Assembly (NCBI GenBank): GCA_021774785.1
Contig: JAJFIQ010000019.1
Span: forward strand, 744,001 to 808,000
Origin: Emcibacter sp.
GTDB taxonomy: Bacteria; Pseudomonadota; Alphaproteobacteria; Sphingomonadales; Emcibacteraceae
DNA: 64,000 bases
Direction of reading: 5' to 3'
Below, piece by piece: positions 47,178 to 58,412 of the stretch. Position 1 is the stretch's first letter; every line of letters starts with the position of its first letter. The notes beneath the pieces are model-generated. The model had not been told where the DNA came from. It saw only the letters and a list, made by a program, of their open reading frames with translations, and did not search any database. The translations under genes and the position numbers were made by a program.

Positions 47178-47254
47178 GGTCCCGTAGCTCAGCAGGATAG
47201 AGCACCAGATTCCTAATCTGGGGGTCACGCGTTCGAATCGCGTCGGGATCACCA
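47178..47254 (+). tRNA. tRNA-Arg (CCT)
   Basis: 77 nt with encoded CCA. Acceptor GGTCCCG pairs with CGGGATC (one G-T), D arm GCTC/GAGC, anticodon stem CCAGA/TCTGG with loop TTCCTAA (anticodon CCT), T arm ACGCG/CGCGT around TTCGAAT. Reads AGG. Its 3' half is repeated perfectly at 49445-49489, so the gene is probably an integration target. Confidence 0.97.
47210..47254 (+). other. attL-like site: 3' half of tRNA-Arg, 45 bp
   Basis: The last 45 bp of the tRNA gene, from the anticodon loop to the CCA end, is identical to 49445-49489. Anticodon-loop-to-3'-end cores are the usual target of tyrosine integrases at tRNA genes. Confidence 0.6.
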
Positions 47255-47410
47255 CTCTTTTTTAAGGCTAATTTGGGGGTTAGAAAGCCATTATATCATA
47301 AAAAATAAGGCATGTAACCTGTGGTAGATTACGGGGTTTTTGGAAAAATTCGCCTCGCCTGAAGACTTTTAACAAAAATTTACCGAATAATGCGTGACGG
47401 CGGTCGCGCC

Positions 47411-47620
47411 TTAACCAGACCGTGCAGCACCGCGGCTAGAGGCTACCAAGTTGGGAATATTCTTACCGCCGCCGCCTTTAACGCCTTTGTTTAATTGAGT
47501 ATTAAATTTGCCCGTATTATGTTTTTGCTCCGCGACGGCAGCTGGGATAGGGTCTACGCCTGTCTCATGTGCTCGGGCTAATCTTTTTTTCTTGCGCTCA
47601 CATGCTCTGGCTTTGCTCAT
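47411..47620 (-). CDS. Small basic protein, copy 1 (duplicated gene)
   Basis: 69 residues, rich in Lys, Arg and Gly: a basic N-terminal helix (MSKARACERKKKRLARAHETG), then KHNTGKFNTQLNKGVKGGGGKN and a C-terminal ASSRGAARSG (quoted in parts). It could bind nucleic acid or the ribosome, but I recognise no family. A second copy at 49643-49852 differs at two residues (Cys/Arg and Val/Ala) although the genes differ at nine bases, so six of eight changed codons are silent and both copies look constrained. Ribosome site GAGAGGG is weak. Confidence 0.7.
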   Translation of the reverse strand: MSKARACERKKKRLARAHETGVDPIPAAVAEQKHNTGKFNTQLNKGVKGGGGKNIPNLVASSRGAARSG

Positions 47621-48030
47621 CGGACTGCCCTCTCTTTTCGATTTATATATACATTAGTCTATATACAAAAAAAAGGAAGAGAGGTTGTATTGGATAACCA
47701 AAGGAGCAGTTTTGGCGGATAAGTCCTTTGGCAAGTCTATCATCCCAAAGAAAGCTGCTAATTAATGTCCGCCAACAAAGGCATTGTTAAATTCAACCCT
47801 CAAGAGGTCATCCAAAAAACGGGTGGCCTCGAAAGGCGGAAACTGACCAAACACCATTGACAAACCACCTTACATACCTAAGATCATGAACGAAAAAATT
47901 CAATACAAATTACTGATCAATTGCGTGAGGATTTCTCGGATTCTATTCCCATCGATCAGGACGTGTTAAATAACAGAATACATGCTTAAACAATCAGATA
48001 GGTTGAATAGTGTAAATACAGGAGATAAAA
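47621..48030. other. Gap between small basic-protein gene and serine hydrolase
   Basis: 410 bp. The first 84 bp belong to the direct repeat and hold the small gene's upstream region; the rest contains the 31-codon relic and no other feature I can support. Confidence 0.4.
47765..47860 (+). pseudogene. Possible gene relic, 31-codon open frame
   Basis: ATG-initiated frame reading MSANKGIVKFNPQEVIQKT then GGLERRKLTKHH and a stop. The composition looks protein-like, and it lies inside the putative element. There is no ribosome site and nothing I can match, so it may be a leftover of an element gene or chance. Confidence 0.25.
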
Positions 48031-49200
48031 ATGAGATACAGCTTATTATGGTCAATAATTGCAGGTTCGTTTTTTTTAGGGGCATCAAATGCAACTTACG
48101 CTGATATGGTTGAGGCCCGTACCATCGAAACCAAAAAAAAATCTCAAAAAACCGATGAACAACTGGTTGCACGCTATGATTCATTAATGAAAAACAACGA
48201 AGAAAATGGCTTCTCGGGTGTTGTATTGATCGAAGAAAGGGGCAAGCTTATTTATAATAAGGCTTTCGGATATGCCAACAAGAAAAAGAAAAACAAGACC
48301 ACACTGGAAACATTATTTGATATAGGTTCCATCACCAAACAGTTTACGGCCGCAGCCATTTTAAAATTGATGGAAAACGGCGATCTTTCCCTGCATGATC
48401 CCTTGTCAAAATTCTTTGACGGGATACCGGCCGACAAAAAAAATATCACCATTCATCACCTACTGACACATACCTCGGGAATTTCCGCCCATACTGGCGA
48501 AGATTATGAATATCTGTCCTCCGAAGATTTTCTGAATCAGGTTTACAACCGAAAGTTAGTGGCAAAACCAGGAAAGGGATTCATCTATGCTAATGTCGGC
48601 TACAGTCTTCTTGCAATGATCATTGAACGCGTTTCTGACCAACCTTACGAAACATTCCTGTATGAAAATATTCTCAAACCGGCAGGACTTGAAAATACTG
48701 GCTACATAAGGCTTGATTACAGCCAATATGTTGTTGCACAGGGCCATAGTTATGAAAAAAACAAACCGTGGGGGTCAAATGTTGAACGCTGGGCGGAAGA
48801 TGGCGGCGTTTCTTGGCATTTGAAAGGCAATGGCGGCATTATGTCTACCACACTTGATATGTATAAGTGGCATCGTGCTATCCAGACCGCAAAAATACTC
48901 AAACCTGAAACGATCGAATTATACCAGGCGCGGCATGTTGCAAATAATCCAAAAAGGCATTACGGCTATGGATGGAATATTCTCACTAGCAGCACAAGGG
49001 GTAAAGTTGTAATGCACAGTGGTGGCAATGGTATTTTTTCTGCCTATGTGCTGCGTTATGTAGACACCAATGCAGCAATCATTTACATGACGAACGAGAC
49101 AAGCCCCGGTACGAAGAAACTGCTCCAGGAACTGGTTTTTATCCTTCTCAGACCAGATTACGAACCAGAGATAATTCAAAAACCGACATTGGTTGATTGA
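48031..49200 (+). CDS. Secreted serine hydrolase, class C beta-lactamase / PBP-like family
   Basis: 389 residues with a signal peptide (about 1-24, ATYA). Active-site motifs: Ser100-x-x-Lys103 in GSITKQF, Tyr186-x-Asn188 in IYANVGYS, and HSGG at 329-332 replacing KTG. This set is shared by EstB-type esterases, D-aminopeptidases and PBP4*-like proteins; resistance to beta-lactams should not be assumed. It is the only clear cargo of the putative tRNA-bound element. AGGAG precedes the ATG. Confidence 0.88.
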   Translation: MRYSLLWSIIAGSFFLGASNATYADMVEARTIETKKKSQKTDEQLVARYDSLMKNNEENGFSGVVLIEERGKLIYNKAFGYANKKKKNKTTLETLFDIGSITKQFTAAAILKLMENGDLSLHDPLSKFFDGIPADKKNITIHHLLTHTSGISAHTGEDYEYLSSEDFLNQVYNRKLVAKPGKGFIYANVGYSLLAMIIERVSDQPYETFLYENILKPAGLENTGYIRLDYSQYVVAQGHSYEKNKPWGSNVERWAEDGGVSWHLKGNGGIMSTTLDMYKWHRAIQTAKILKPETIELYQARHVANNPKRHYGYGWNILTSSTRGKVVMHSGGNGIFSAYVLRYVDTNAAIIYMTNETSPGTKKLLQELVFILLRPDYEPEIIQKPTLVD

Positions 49201-49444
49201 AAAATTTCAGGCCTAGTAAGTCCGCATAAACCTGCAAAGATAATCTTGCACTACACAGCAACACAAAATGTTAGATTATGGATCAACCCTCTGAAAATAC
49301 TTAGAAAATAACATGGTCAAAATGCCCATATCAGCAAGTGCGGCGTTTTAATTTATGTGTAAATTGGAATTTTTAGAATTTGTAAAAAAACAACTCATTG
49401 ATTTTATTATTTAATTAGGAATAATTACCAATAGTTGCAAATTT
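49201..49444. other. AT-rich gap between the serine hydrolase and attR-like site
   Basis: 244 bp. No open frame of note, no promoter, no terminator with a T-run. Confidence 0.4.
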
Positions 49445-49489
49445 TTCCTAATCTGGGGGTCACGCGTTCGAATCGCGTCGGGATCACCA
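49445..49489 (+). other. attR-like site: 45 bp copy of tRNA-Arg 3' half
   Basis: Identical over 45 bp to 47210-47254, starting in the anticodon loop and ending with CCA. The upstream half of a tRNA is absent, so this is not a working tRNA gene. Confidence 0.7.
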
Positions 49490-49642
49490 TTTCTTTTTTT
49501 GCTGGTTTGTGTTTAGAAAGTCATAATATCACAATTATCAGAGCCGTAACCTGTTGTAGATTACTAGGTTTTTGGAAAAATTTGCCTCGCCTAAAGACTT
49601 TTAACAAAAATCTACCAAATAATGCATGACGGCGGTCGCGCC

Positions 49643-49852
49643 TTAACCAGACCGTGCAGCACCGCGGCTAGAGGCCGCCAAGTTGGGAATATTCTTTCCG
49701 CCACCGCCTTTTACGCCTTTATTTAATTGAGTATTAAATTTGCCCGTATTATGTTTTTGCTCCGCGACGGCAGCGGGGATAGGATCTACGCCTGTCTCAT
49801 GTGCTCGGGCTAATCTTTTTTTCTTGCGCTCACGTGCTCTGGCTTTGCTCAT
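49643..49852 (-). CDS. Small basic protein, copy 2 (duplicated gene)
   Basis: 69 residues, same as copy 1 except Arg for Cys at residue 7 (MSKARARERKKKR) and Ala for Val at residue 58. The sequence is arginine/lysine-rich at the N-terminus with a central GGGG. This copy may be the resident chromosomal gene next to tRNA-Arg before the upstream 2.2 kb arrived; that is inference. Function unknown. Confidence 0.7.
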   Translation of the reverse strand: MSKARARERKKKRLARAHETGVDPIPAAVAEQKHNTGKFNTQLNKGVKGGGGKNIPNLAASSRGAARSG

Positions 49853-50095
49853 CGGACTACCCTCTCTTTTCGATTAACACATACATTAGTCTATATTCAA
49901 AAAAAAGGAAAGAGAGGTTGTTTTGGATAACCAAAGGGTCTGCTTTGGGTCAGAATAGATAATTCATTATCATTATTTTTCCCACCTCATATGAACATAC
50001 GAAATCGTCAACCCCTTCATACATACAAATTGCAGGGTATATTTAATATGGCCAATTATGATATAAATGGGCAAAATTCCACTACCTAATATGCT

Positions 50096-50533
50096 TTAAG
50101 GGACCAATACTATAGGTACACCTGCTGTATGGGCCAAAGAGTTAGCAACACTTCCCAAAAGCAAATTTGCCACTTTTGATCGCCCCCGGCGTCCGACAAA
50201 TATCATATTCGCATGTGTTATTTTGGCTTGGTCCTTGATAACATCAACAGGATGTCCCCAAAATAATTTGCTACTTATTTCCACACCAGAATCCGCGTAA
50301 CGTTTTTCCAAGGGAGCAAGTATATTTTCACGTTCGAATTCTTCTTCCTTTGATGTATCCTGCGGTGGCGCCGAGAAATCCCCGACATATAAGGGCTGAT
50401 ATTTTGACCATTGCAATGCCGTTACAAAGAGAACTTCCGCTTCCGTTTTCTGGGCAAGGGATACGGCCCTTTCGGCGGCCCTGTCACTCCATTCACTGCC
50501 ATCAATGGCCACTAAATAAATTAATTTCCCCAT
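50096..50533 (-). CDS. Universal stress protein UspA family
   Basis: 145 residues from ATG 50533, which has AGGAGA at good spacing; the ATG two codons earlier is too close to it. The fold is evident from LVAIDGSEWSDRAAERAVSLA at the start and the nucleotide-binding G-x2-G-x9-G(S/T) motif in VGRRGRSKVANLLLGSVANS near 113-132 (given in part: GRRGRSKV, LLGSVANS). Such proteins bind ATP and respond to stress. It follows the antiporter gene by 137 bp on the same strand. Confidence 0.93.
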   Translation of the reverse strand: MGKLIYLVAIDGSEWSDRAAERAVSLAQKTEAEVLFVTALQWSKYQPLYVGDFSAPPQDTSKEEEFERENILAPLEKRYADSGVEISSKLFWGHPVDVIKDQAKITHANMIFVGRRGRSKVANLLLGSVANSLAHTAGVPIVLVP

Positions 50534-50670
50534 TCTCATTCTCCTAAGCTGAATTAAAATTCATTGTTCAAAATAATCAACCAATACTTCTTAAGTATAC
50601 TAAGGATAATTCTACACTCAACAGAAAAATGATGCTTGATTTGCGTCAATATTTTTCAGTGATTACCGTC

Positions 50671-52236
50671 TCAGCCCTCCAGTGCAAGAATGGTTTGATC
50701 TGCAAAACCCGCACCTGCTTTTTGATAAAAATTAAAGACGACATCAACACCGGCAGCAAGTAATCTTTCTCTATCATCTTCATATTTAACAATACCCGCA
50801 GTTTTTCCCCCATATCCAGCATGGCGAAGCTGCTTAAGAACCTCTAAAATATCCAGATAATTCGGCATAGCAAACATAATCAGTTTTATAGGTTCAAGAC
50901 TTATATATTCCCAAAAATCAGGATCTTCTGCATCAGCAAAAATGACATTTCTATTCTCGTTATGATGTGCCGATACCCGTTCCTTGATCATTTCTATGCC
51001 ACAGACATCTTTGCCCAGATTTTCCCTCAAGCTATCATAAGCACCCGTTCCAACGCGCCCCATTCCAATGACAAGGACTGTTGCATTTTCCGGGCGAGAA
51101 TACTGGTCTTCGGGCAAACGTCCTGAATTTTCAAATCGCTTAATAACGTCGCGCCAACGGGCATACATCCCGTGGGCATGGGCATTAATGATACTGGAAA
51201 AAACAAAGGATATGGAAACGGTTAACGCCATAATAACCAGCCATTCTTTGGCCAACAAACCATGCATAACACTTGCAGAGCATACAATAAGACCAAATTC
51301 ACTATAATTTGTGAGACTTAACGAAGCGAGGAACGCGCTACGTGCGCGAAGCTTTAATCGAGCCAGCAAAAGGAAAAATATTCCTGATTTTATGGGAAGC
51401 GCAATCGACATAATCAATGCTGCCCCCAACATATCAAACGTCGGTAATGCCGTAAATCCGATTGAGAGGAAAAACCCGATAAGGAAAAGATCTTTAAAGT
51501 TCAGTAATGATTTCGCAAGTTCATTTGCTTTTTCATGACCACTTAACAAAACAGCAAAGATCAAGGCACCAAGTTGGGCTTTCAAACCAACCAGTTCAAA
51601 CAATTCTCCGCCCGTTATAGCTAGAAAAAAACCCGCTAACGGCAAGAGTTCACCATGTCCGCTTTTCTGAAGAATTTTGGTAAGAAATGGCCTTGCCAAA
51701 GGTAAAGCCAGCAAAGCCAGTGCCCACCATGATGGTGATTTATCGGTAGAAAATGTGACAAATATTACAGCCGCAATATCCTGAATGATAAGAATACCAA
51801 TAGCCACCTGCCCGTGCCGGGAACGCATCTCGCCTCTATCTTCAAGAATTTTTACGGCGCAAACGGTACTGCTAAAACTCACGGCAAACCCGACCAAGGC
51901 TGCTGCTGTCCAATCCAGTCCGGTAAAATAGGCTACTCCTATATAAGCAAAGAAAAGGCAATTGAATATCGTCAGGATTACAATGGCCATCATATGACCC
52001 GTTGCCCCGCCCCATATTTCAACCTTAAACAGGCTCTTGATATTGAGCTTCAAGCCAATGGTAAACAAAAGCAGGGTTACCCCAAGGTCGGACAGGGTTT
52101 CGAGGGAGCCATCAGGTACAACACCAAGGGCATGTAGACCAAATCCTGCCGTAAGATAACCAACTAACGGTGGCAGCTTTATTTGTTTAACAAGAAAACC
52201 ACAGGCGAATGCGACTGCAACCCATATATAATCCAT
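50671..52236 (-). CDS. CPA2 family cation:proton antiporter with TrkA-N domain
   Basis: 521 residues from ATG 52236; a GTG three codons upstream overlaps the ribosome site. Twelve to thirteen membrane helices (about 3-370), a long helix link, then a cytosolic Rossmann domain beginning VLVIGMGRVGTGAYDSL (GxGxxG, about 390-405). The KefB/YbaL-like layout suggests K+ or Na+ efflux gated by NAD(H) or glutathione. The adjacent stress protein could be part of its control; that is speculation. Confidence 0.9.
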   Translation of the reverse strand: MDYIWVAVAFACGFLVKQIKLPPLVGYLTAGFGLHALGVVPDGSLETLSDLGVTLLLFTIGLKLNIKSLFKVEIWGGATGHMMAIVILTIFNCLFFAYIGVAYFTGLDWTAAALVGFAVSFSSTVCAVKILEDRGEMRSRHGQVAIGILIIQDIAAVIFVTFSTDKSPSWWALALLALPLARPFLTKILQKSGHGELLPLAGFFLAITGGELFELVGLKAQLGALIFAVLLSGHEKANELAKSLLNFKDLFLIGFFLSIGFTALPTFDMLGAALIMSIALPIKSGIFFLLLARLKLRARSAFLASLSLTNYSEFGLIVCSASVMHGLLAKEWLVIMALTVSISFVFSSIINAHAHGMYARWRDVIKRFENSGRLPEDQYSRPENATVLVIGMGRVGTGAYDSLRENLGKDVCGIEMIKERVSAHHNENRNVIFADAEDPDFWEYISLEPIKLIMFAMPNYLDILEVLKQLRHAGYGGKTAGIVKYEDDRERLLAAGVDVVFNFYQKAGAGFADQTILALEG

Positions 52237-52245
52237 TATTATCAC

Positions 52246-52508: not shown

Positions 52509-52769
52509 AATAATTCCCAATATGCGTTCGGTATAACAGCCAACTATGTCTTTGATCAGAATAGGAACTGGCTCACAAGTATTTATGTTTTCAAAACAAA
52601 ACACAATTATGATGTCCTCATTGCACAACCAAGCACCACGTTAATTCAACAGGACAAACAAGGCATGCTTCGTTATGGGGTCATTTTAGAAAAGCATCAT
52701 GCAAGACGAGTTTTCATCCGTTACCCAGTAGTGGTAACACAGTTAATTATTTTATCAGCCTGCGGGTAA
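52509..52769 (+). pseudogene. Remnant of an outer membrane beta-barrel protein, C-terminal
   Basis: An open frame without a start codon, 86 codons: SQYAFGITANYVFDQNRNW, LTSIYVFKTKHNYDV, then MLRYGVILEKHHARRVFIRYP. The alternating pattern of aromatic and polar residues looks like beta-hairpins of an outer membrane barrel. Nothing upstream continues it (stop at 52506-52508), so it is most likely a decayed gene. Recognition is by pattern only. Confidence 0.4.
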
Positions 52770-53081
52770 ATAGGGAATTGATCCTGCAATATCAGTGTCA
52801 TCAATCATATGGAAATTGCTAACGCTTCCGTCCTGCCGCGCTTTGCTTAAGGGCGCATATTCTGGGTCCTGAACAAAACCCATAAGGTTTTCTTTTGTCG
52901 GAAATTCTATTATTGCAATCAATGTGCTATCTTTATCGGATCCTTCTACGGTTTCAATATTACCACTACGGCTAAGGTATTTACCGCCATGTTTTTCAGC
53001 AATATTGTGAACATGCGCGGCATACTCAGGAATCCAACTGTCATCGGTGACCTTAACGTCGGCAATTAAAAAAACACTCAT
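52755..53081 (-). CDS. DUF1330 family protein
   Basis: 108 residues. DUF1330 (dimeric alpha-beta barrel) features: FLIADVKVTDDSWIPEYAAHV, the KHGGKYLSRSG segment and IIEFPTKENLMGFVQDPEY. Cytosolic, unknown function. Start preceded by AGGAGACTATT. Its end overlaps the beta-barrel relic on the other strand by 15 bp. Confidence 0.88.
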   Translation of the reverse strand: MSVFLIADVKVTDDSWIPEYAAHVHNIAEKHGGKYLSRSGNIETVEGSDKDSTLIAIIEFPTKENLMGFVQDPEYAPLSKARQDGSVSNFHMIDDTDIAGSIPYLPAG

Positions 53082-56288: not shown

Positions 56289-58333
<2,045 letters not shown>

Positions 58334-58412
58334 ATTTGCCATATGCTGAGCCTTTTTTAAACAAACATCAAGGGAGAAATTTTAAAATACTGCTTTTTCT
58401 GATTTTCTTTTG

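Follow-up and report, generated by a model that had tools for sequence, protein, structure and literature searches.

The stretch of DNA considered here, referred to below as the window, is 64,000 nucleotides long and corresponds to G000:C11:744001-808000, where G000 is its source genome, that of an Emcibacter species. It contains a single tRNA gene as judged by ARAGORN, a complete tRNA-Arg(CCT) on the plus strand (47178..47254; Rfam tRNA, 66.3 bits), and the subject of this account is the segment that begins inside that gene. The motif TTCCTAA in the anticodon loop (47210..47216, plus strand), which we call the core, recurs 2,235 bp further on, where it opens a displaced copy of the 3′ half of the tRNA (49445..49489, plus strand) that is identical to 47210-47254 at 45 of 45 positions. 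The segment from core to core (47210..49444, plus strand), delimited by the boundaries of the repeat and by the left-end model R1 described below, appears to be a small integrative cassette, such that the 3′ half of the working tRNA, from 47210, would have been supplied by the cassette itself (attL), with the displaced half containing the core of attR.

Reading on from the tRNA, the segment contains a right arm (P′-like; 47272..47349, plus strand), which includes GTAACCTGTGGTAGATTAC and matches the right-arm pattern with 0 mismatches and the right-arm model R2 with 79 bits, the arm being part of the training set of that model. There follow a gene for a basic protein of 69 amino acids (copy 1; 47411..47620, minus strand) and one for a serine hydrolase of the beta-lactamase/PBP-like family (48031..49200, plus strand; 389 amino acids; PF00144, E 1.2e-65), for which the NCBIfam matches listed (25 of 48) all lie far below the cut-offs. 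These are the two genes recognised between the cores. The segment closes with the left end of the cassette (P-like arm; 49195..49444, plus strand), of which 49351-49443 matches R1, and which is also found by a profile built with its own genome left out (E 7.2e-12). Beyond the displaced half an older unit begins in the same manner, with a right arm (49498..49581, plus strand; R2 71.9 bits, again within the training set; pattern 1 mismatch) and a second copy of the 69-amino-acid gene (49643..49852, minus strand). The original prediction, an earlier reading of this DNA, had described an element of 2,235 bp with att-like boundaries at the anticodon loop and a cargo devoid of an integrase gene; all of this is borne out.

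The 45 identical base pairs, on which that prediction was founded, do recur as described, and with up to 12 mismatches allowed the last 45 bp of the tRNA gene occur only twice in the window. They are, however, merely the edge of a longer repeat of about 505 bp at about 90% identity (47210-47715 and 49445-49948), each copy of which also contains a right arm and the 69-amino-acid gene. Across the whole genome seven matches to the repeat were listed, two longer than 500 bp and five short ones (36-77 bp, 77-86% identity), which look as other tRNA genes would. Identity is unevenly spread along the repeat: after the half tRNA it falls to 39 of 60 columns over the next 59 bp, returns to 89/97 over the next 97 bp, stands at 201/210 in the open reading frame of 69 codons and at 85/96 in the next 95 bp, and is lost past 47716 (9/26). 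In other words, the claim that the adjacent 100 bp are poorly conserved holds for the roughly 60 bp nearest the core side and fails beyond them. On the upstream side of the core they show no relation to each other, one being the 5′ half of the tRNA and the other the left end of the element. The perfection of the half is probably owed to its having served as the working tRNA end until the last insertion, and the flanks of the two halves, as arms of different units, differ accordingly. Calculated by hand, a divergence of 6% gives 45 identical bases a chance of about 0.06, and one of 10% a chance of 0.009, such that the perfect identity is unusual but not decisive; what decides the matter is the left end shared with relatives. 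Site-specific recombination thus stands as the reading, whereas the perfection of the half within drifted flanks, which had been offered as its proof, does not prove it. The duplication of the small gene (95.7% DNA identity) means that the newest and the older unit of the window both carry it, and the newest unit is possibly a fusion of a small-gene cassette with a hydrolase cassette. A repeat of 505 bp, rather than 45, with the small gene included, is also what a plain segmental duplication of half tRNA and small gene would leave, with no mobile element at all.

Relatives were searched in sets that included 16 genomes from the genus, 32 from the family and 396 sampled from the order, with one genome per species. 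When 60 relatives were searched for the tRNA and the region that follows it, several half copies appeared on single contigs, and in all seven half copies are present in five genomes (one each in G000, G010 and G013, two each in G008 and G009). The corresponding scan for the tRNA and its half found 16 places in 10 of the 32 family genomes, comprising these seven halves, eight full tRNA genes and one place in G015 which starts at a contig end, where full and half are not distinguishable. Five of the seven displaced halves are immediately preceded by a conserved left end, which finishes in CCAATAGTTNNANANNN and is followed by TTCCTAATC, with which these five halves exactly start. The conserved part extends for about 97 bp directly before TTCCTAA, and in some pairs for up to about 350 bp. 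Sought as a pattern with at most three mismatches, the left end occurs at 12 places in nine of the 32 family genomes, the reversed control giving one match. Ten of the places are array junctions with 0-1 mismatches, in seven genus genomes, and they stand before halves (five), before a decayed half in G007 (one) and before a second type of sequence, the type 2 start described below (four); the other two places, with 2 and 3 mismatches and in other genera, are regarded as chance.

The invariance of the core at these junctions is partly circular, inasmuch as they were picked with a pattern that contains it. The model R1 was built without the core, and 10 of its 11 array matches run into TTCCTAA, the eleventh, in G015, having a decayed core. 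R1 and R2 were both constructed from these same junctions, with a leave-one-genome-out control existing for R1 and none for R2; in that control all ten left ends are recovered in 369 kb, at E 1.4e-7 to 3.5e-19. Outside the loci of the seven genomes the only R1 match is a degenerate left end in G015, itself an array locus. This locus (L069, bases 1100-1, minus strand) reads right arm, small gene, left end and degenerate type 2 start, and continues with sequence like that preceding a cold-shock gene in G009; it shows how the ends erode. The idea that the left end is a coding remnant was rejected by eye, its reading frames being inconsistent between copies, and Rfam found tRNA only, with no other known RNA, on the ends in the window and in the loci of four relatives. 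Overall, arrays or traces of them occur in nine of the 16 genus genomes: in G000, G008, G009, G010, G013 and G014 they adjoin the tRNA or a half copy, in G007 they lie by a decayed half, and in G012 and G015 they are recognised from the ends alone. The genes upstream of the tRNA vary between clades.

The right side of a junction, past the core, is either the tRNA 3′ half (five junctions and one decayed) or a type 2 start, TTCCTAA(T/G)CTNGG..., which is not derived from tRNA and is present at one junction each in G008, G009, G010 and G012. Type 2 starts were located only at junctions inside arrays. Three of the four have an inverted copy of the core; at L066:4533-4599, L064:497-560 and L062:1904-1968 it lies some 40 bp away (TTCCTAA ... 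TTAGGA). The DNA folding z-scores of the four are -2.96, -1.78, -1.12 and 0.09, such that some copies could fold as a hairpin. Moreover, in all five genomes seen with an array or right arm at the complete tRNA (G000, G008, G009, G013 and G014), the tRNA is intact, with its own 3′ half and with the core at the anticodon, as would be expected if type 2 units cannot restore the tRNA. Half-tRNA and type 2 starts alike can be followed by the common right arm around GTAACCTGTGGTAGATTAC, the pattern of which has 11 matches in seven of the 32 family genomes, 11 of 11 on array contigs. The model R2, built from 11 of these arms, has 16 matches in the genus, of which 13 (E <= 1.5e-5), in eight of the 16 genomes, are on array contigs. 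One match at 0.003, in G012:C20, was set aside by eye, as it adjoins an apparent transposase. No recognisable right arm was found at the tRNA of G008.

Between these standard ends the content differs. Core-to-core lengths, calculated by hand from the coordinates for eight units, range from 742 to 3751 bp: 2235 bp in the window, 1691 in G013, 3751, 1717 and 742 in G009, 758 and 2056 in G008, and 2271 in G010. Other cargoes bounded by the same core, for which the original prediction had proposed to look, are therefore present in relatives. In G009 the first unit encodes an OsmC-YcaO protein and a JmjC protein and the second a hydrolase; G008 has a CNNM/CBS protein, G012 a TonB receptor, and G010 a DUF7683 protein and a weakly PsbP-like one, with proteins of no known kind elsewhere in the arrays. 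The hydrolases of the window and of G009 were considered as orthologues and rejected as such at 27% identity, which indicates separate acquisitions of one family. At the same time, window positions 49195-49580 are 82% identical to the corresponding junction of the G013 unit, which carries other cargo.

It is at this point that a segmental duplication becomes very hard to sustain. The boundary falls at one and the same position of the anticodon loop in five of the seven half copies, across five genomes, the other two being decayed; the conserved left end precedes it in genomes with different cargo; and type 2 starts come after that same left end with no tRNA at all. A duplication, which the original prediction had named as the main alternative, is on these grounds highly improbable.

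The 69-amino-acid gene has a wider distribution than the ends. It is present in 23 of the 99 genomes searched, G000 included, several of them from other genera in which the family searches gave no such ends (for example G020, G025 and G026); the gene is accordingly taken as cargo and not as part of the mechanism. Its protein has no family in Pfam (both copies), nor in NCBIfam, PHROGs or PADLOC (copy 2), and nine proteins compared with defence and phage libraries gave only one weak PHROG of unknown function. As DNA, the gene of G026, from another genus, is 91% identical to that of G009, and those of G009 and G010, from the same genus, are 84% identical to each other. Such values hint that the gene may have moved between genera.

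If the arrays had simply been inherited, their ends should diverge as their hosts do. In this regard, the identity of left ends is uncorrelated with that of the host Xer loci (Spearman -0.13 over 42 cross-genome pairs; 1453 of 2000 label permutations reach it), although saturation may be part of the reason, the left ends being short and non-coding. G008 and G012 have left ends 92% identical and Xer loci 69% identical; in the sister pair G009 and G012 the Xer loci are 91% and the left ends 76% identical. In G010 and G012, which have Xer loci at 71.7% identity, a weakly AlaDH-like gene of the arrays agrees at 97.8% over 730 bp, a figure to be taken with the caution that both are metagenome-assembled genomes (MAGs) of one series, that the G012 copy is near a contig end and that mis-assembly is possible. 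The small-gene unit shared by G009 and G012 is 95% identical against 91% for the Xer loci, and shared units of this kind look like vertical descent. Vertical inheritance of one ancestral repeat is nonetheless disfavoured by the absent correlation of left ends with hosts.

The layout is also far from universal. The original prediction would have been undone by a single two-copy arrangement in all relatives; instead, layouts and cargoes differ, and G011, a single contig, has the tRNA beside the counterpart of the window's upstream gene (75% protein identity), and neither a half copy nor a left end nor a right arm. This locus fits an unoccupied site, although its right flank is unlike that of the arrays. 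In G008, where the tRNA is on another contig, the farther half is the more decayed (6 mismatches versus 0), a gradient that would be expected if the newest unit lies nearest to the tRNA; in G009 the order is unclear, the near half having 4 mismatches and the far half a 2-base insertion.

Taken together, we read the segment as the most recent addition to an array at tRNA-Arg(CCT), made up of non-autonomous integrative cassettes that a tyrosine integrase moves in trans, and we put the probability of this at about 0.8. The reading is built on the anatomy of the junctions, on ends shared between units of different cargo, on the lack of any integrase found in the units, and on the discordance with host divergence. 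Besides its one to three cargo genes, a cassette would comprise a left arm that is conserved, a core with the sequence of the anticodon loop, a tRNA 3′ half or type 2 side and, in most cases, a conserved right arm. Strands would be exchanged within TTCCTAA, the probable overlap region, between the core of a circular cassette and that of the tRNA, the enzyme being a tyrosine integrase provided in trans. The incoming 3′ half would then restore the tRNA, and the old half would be displaced outwards, where it would mark the older neighbour, such that every internal junction would join the left arm of a newer unit to the right side of an older one. Type 2 cassettes would be unable to restore the tRNA. 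RecA exchange between the repeated ends may add some reshuffling.

None of 26 proteins from the window and the array loci, a selection from their open reading frames, reaches the cut-off of a recombinase or integrase family in Pfam, and none matches a transfer family. In a search of the whole genomes of the genus for PF00589, no match falls on the array contig of any relative, and that of the window has one, some 590 kb away. The absence of an integrase from the units and from the relatives' array contigs favours provision in trans, as the original prediction had supposed. G009, G007 and G014 have two PF00589 genes each, both in Xer-like groups common to the genus, which we take to be XerC and XerD; the grouping used the integrases of G000 and the Xer-like genes as queries, with part of the relatives' integrases included. 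Genomes lacking arrays (G003, G004 and G005) also have only two, from which it follows that the number of integrases does not separate genomes with arrays from those without.

That three genomes with arrays or traces contain only this conserved pair invites the proposal that the host XerC and XerD themselves catalyse the integration, the cassettes being Xer-exploiting elements. The dif-like site CGCATAAT(A/T)TATATTATGGTAA, present in two of the 16 genus genomes (G005 and G013, with none in G000), is however unlike the core by eye, and the three assemblies in question (95% complete for G009, 83% for G007 and 67% for G014) may miss an integrase. We consider this proposal very improbable.

In a different explanation the array is a fossil: a few ancient insertions by an integrative element since lost, followed by RecA-dependent exchange that shuffles, duplicates and deletes cassettes, so that no integrase is needed now. 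It has in its favour that no integrase was found in the arrays and that the PF00589 genes of G009 are only the two Xer-like ones. Moreover, the two left ends of G009 have an identity of 97% over about 97 bp and of 85% over 344 bp, which is what duplication or conversion would leave, and the small gene of the window is itself duplicated. Yet the half at the unit proximal to the tRNA is perfect in G000 and G013, such that the last insertions look recent; in G010 the left ends share only 62% identity with each other; and homologous exchange accounts neither for the type 2 starts nor for insertion exactly at the core. The fossil array is thus a genuine possibility, if an unlikely one.

Several observations weigh against cassettes moved in trans, beyond the possible mis-assembly of the AlaDH-like case. 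A cognate integrase did not come to light, and since G009, G007 and G014 have only the Xer-like pair, no other PF00589 gene is common to all array genomes as assembled. The same ends were not seen together with an integrase in any neighbour or relative either, in contigs that are short in several of the MAGs and with relaxase and coupling genes not searched genome-wide. No autonomous element with these ends appeared in the 396 order genomes, in viral contigs, in phages or in plasmids. The order search by ends gave 58 genomes with some match at E <= 0.1, of which ten matches in seven genomes have E < 1e-13 and the degenerate end of G015 has 8.7e-5; the rest, at 8.8e-4 and weaker, are taken as noise, and one such locus inspected by eye, L193, has no obvious integrase. 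Six loose matches in viral contigs were rejected as being only at noise level, phages gave one 35-bp match and plasmids none. The left-end pattern has 11 matches collection-wide, five of them in Emcibacter-like contigs (G008, G009, G010, G012 and G013); the other six, in other phyla or classes, were discarded, about 7.5 being expected by chance (by hand) and R1 finding nothing there. On the side of anatomy, the older unit of the window has no left end downstream that R1 recognises, two of the seven halves (the first of G009 and the second of G008) are decayed at the left-end junction and have no recognisable left end, and a recognisable right arm was not found at the half copies of G008 and G010. 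One simple alignment test gave no significant arm-type repeats shared by the two arms, 602 (direct) and 776 (inverted) of 1000 shuffles reaching the score. Finally, a precise empty site with the right flank of the arrays was not found, the right flank of G011 being different. The overall outcome for the original prediction is that site-specific recombination at the tRNA and an integrase in trans are supported, and that the argument from identity is weaker than had been put.

Beyond the array, the window has genes for a universal stress protein and a KefB/KefC-like cation antiporter (50096-52245, minus strand), which separate the array from a DUF1330 gene (52755-53081). In both G009 and G013 the last half is followed by a cold-shock gene, and in G013 this gene adjoins the DUF1330 orthologue, from which it follows that this stretch differs from the window by a rearrangement. 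Further downstream is a thiamine pyrophosphate (TPP) riboswitch aptamer (58180-58339, minus strand; RF00059, 59.4 bits, cut-off 54.3).

The cassettes represent a compact format used by a marine lineage at a tRNA hotspot: they measure about 0.7-3.8 kb, carry one to three genes, and have ends that are sufficiently well defined to be looked for in any genome. They point to transfers of single genes that are invisible to searches which depend on an integrase gene, and, should the recombinase be found, they would become a testable example of cassettes moved in trans that have no integron, transposase or conjugation genes of their own. A more far-reaching version may be sketched, albeit as speculation that we regard as doubtful, in which the system is an integron-like cassette capture with a tRNA gene as its anchor: Emcibacter species would exchange minimal cassettes that have standard ends, and these would be inserted by an off-array and often non-resident integrase, with two types, one restoring the tRNA and the type 2 serving internal sites, together building an ordered array.

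Tycheposons are tRNA-anchored cargo elements of marine bacteria. According to the excerpts of the literature used for these comparisons, they measure 4-200 kb and in the Methylophilaceae case have a tyrosine recombinase (PMC10872708), whereas the eight units here are of 742-3751 bp, below 4 kb, and no PF00589 match was found in them. With CALINs (clusters of attC sites lacking integron-integrases), the arrays share small cassettes without an integrase that are mobilised in trans, as the excerpt of PMC11389934, a review that also treats tycheposons, has it; the sites here are instead tRNA-derived cores with long arms and not attC, attC models not having been run. As at the tRNA sites of tyrosine integrases, the probable crossover falls in the anticodon loop and the tRNA is restored, though significant arm-type repeats are lacking. 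The ssrA islands of Dehalococcoides are alike in standing in tandem behind an RNA gene, with 3′-end repeats, a conserved motif upstream and some members without recombinases, but the excerpt of PMC3146451 describes 16 islands with serine recombinase modules and a site in the T-loop of the tmRNA, whereas none of the present units was found to have a recombinase and they sit at the anticodon loop of a tRNA. Searches of the open-licence PubMed Central (PMC) literature, Emcibacter genomic islands included, brought up no description of these cassettes among the titles and starts of abstracts listed.

The closest relations appear to lie with two further classes. Cis-mobilizable elements (CIMEs), as set out in the excerpt of PMC7563491, keep their att sites, have no recombination genes and occur in tandem; likewise, the present cassettes retain att sites and have no recombination or transfer genes among the proteins scanned, a subset of the open reading frames. 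CIMEs are defined there, however, as decayed integrative and conjugative or integrative mobilizable elements (ICEs or IMEs), and on the array contigs of the relatives no integrase-bearing partner was seen. Additive flexible genomic islands (fGIs) are known from Alteromonas (PMC5217437, in excerpt) and from Methylophilaceae, the fGI-2 of which comprises islands of 330 bp-42 kb with 20-bp repeats of the 3′ end of tRNA-Lys (PMC10872708, in excerpt). As in those islands, variable cassettes occupy one tRNA and repeats of the tRNA 3′ end lie between them, type 2 junctions being without such repeats, and the array locus is shared while its content varies. What sets the Emcibacter units apart is their length of 742-3751 bp, the shared left arms of 97 to about 350 bp and right arms of about 80 bp, and the presence of some right sides that are not tRNA; the excerpt for fGI-2 makes no mention of shared arms. 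We therefore file these cassettes with the tRNA-anchored additive islands, CIME-like in lacking an integrase and with no ICE or IME partner seen.

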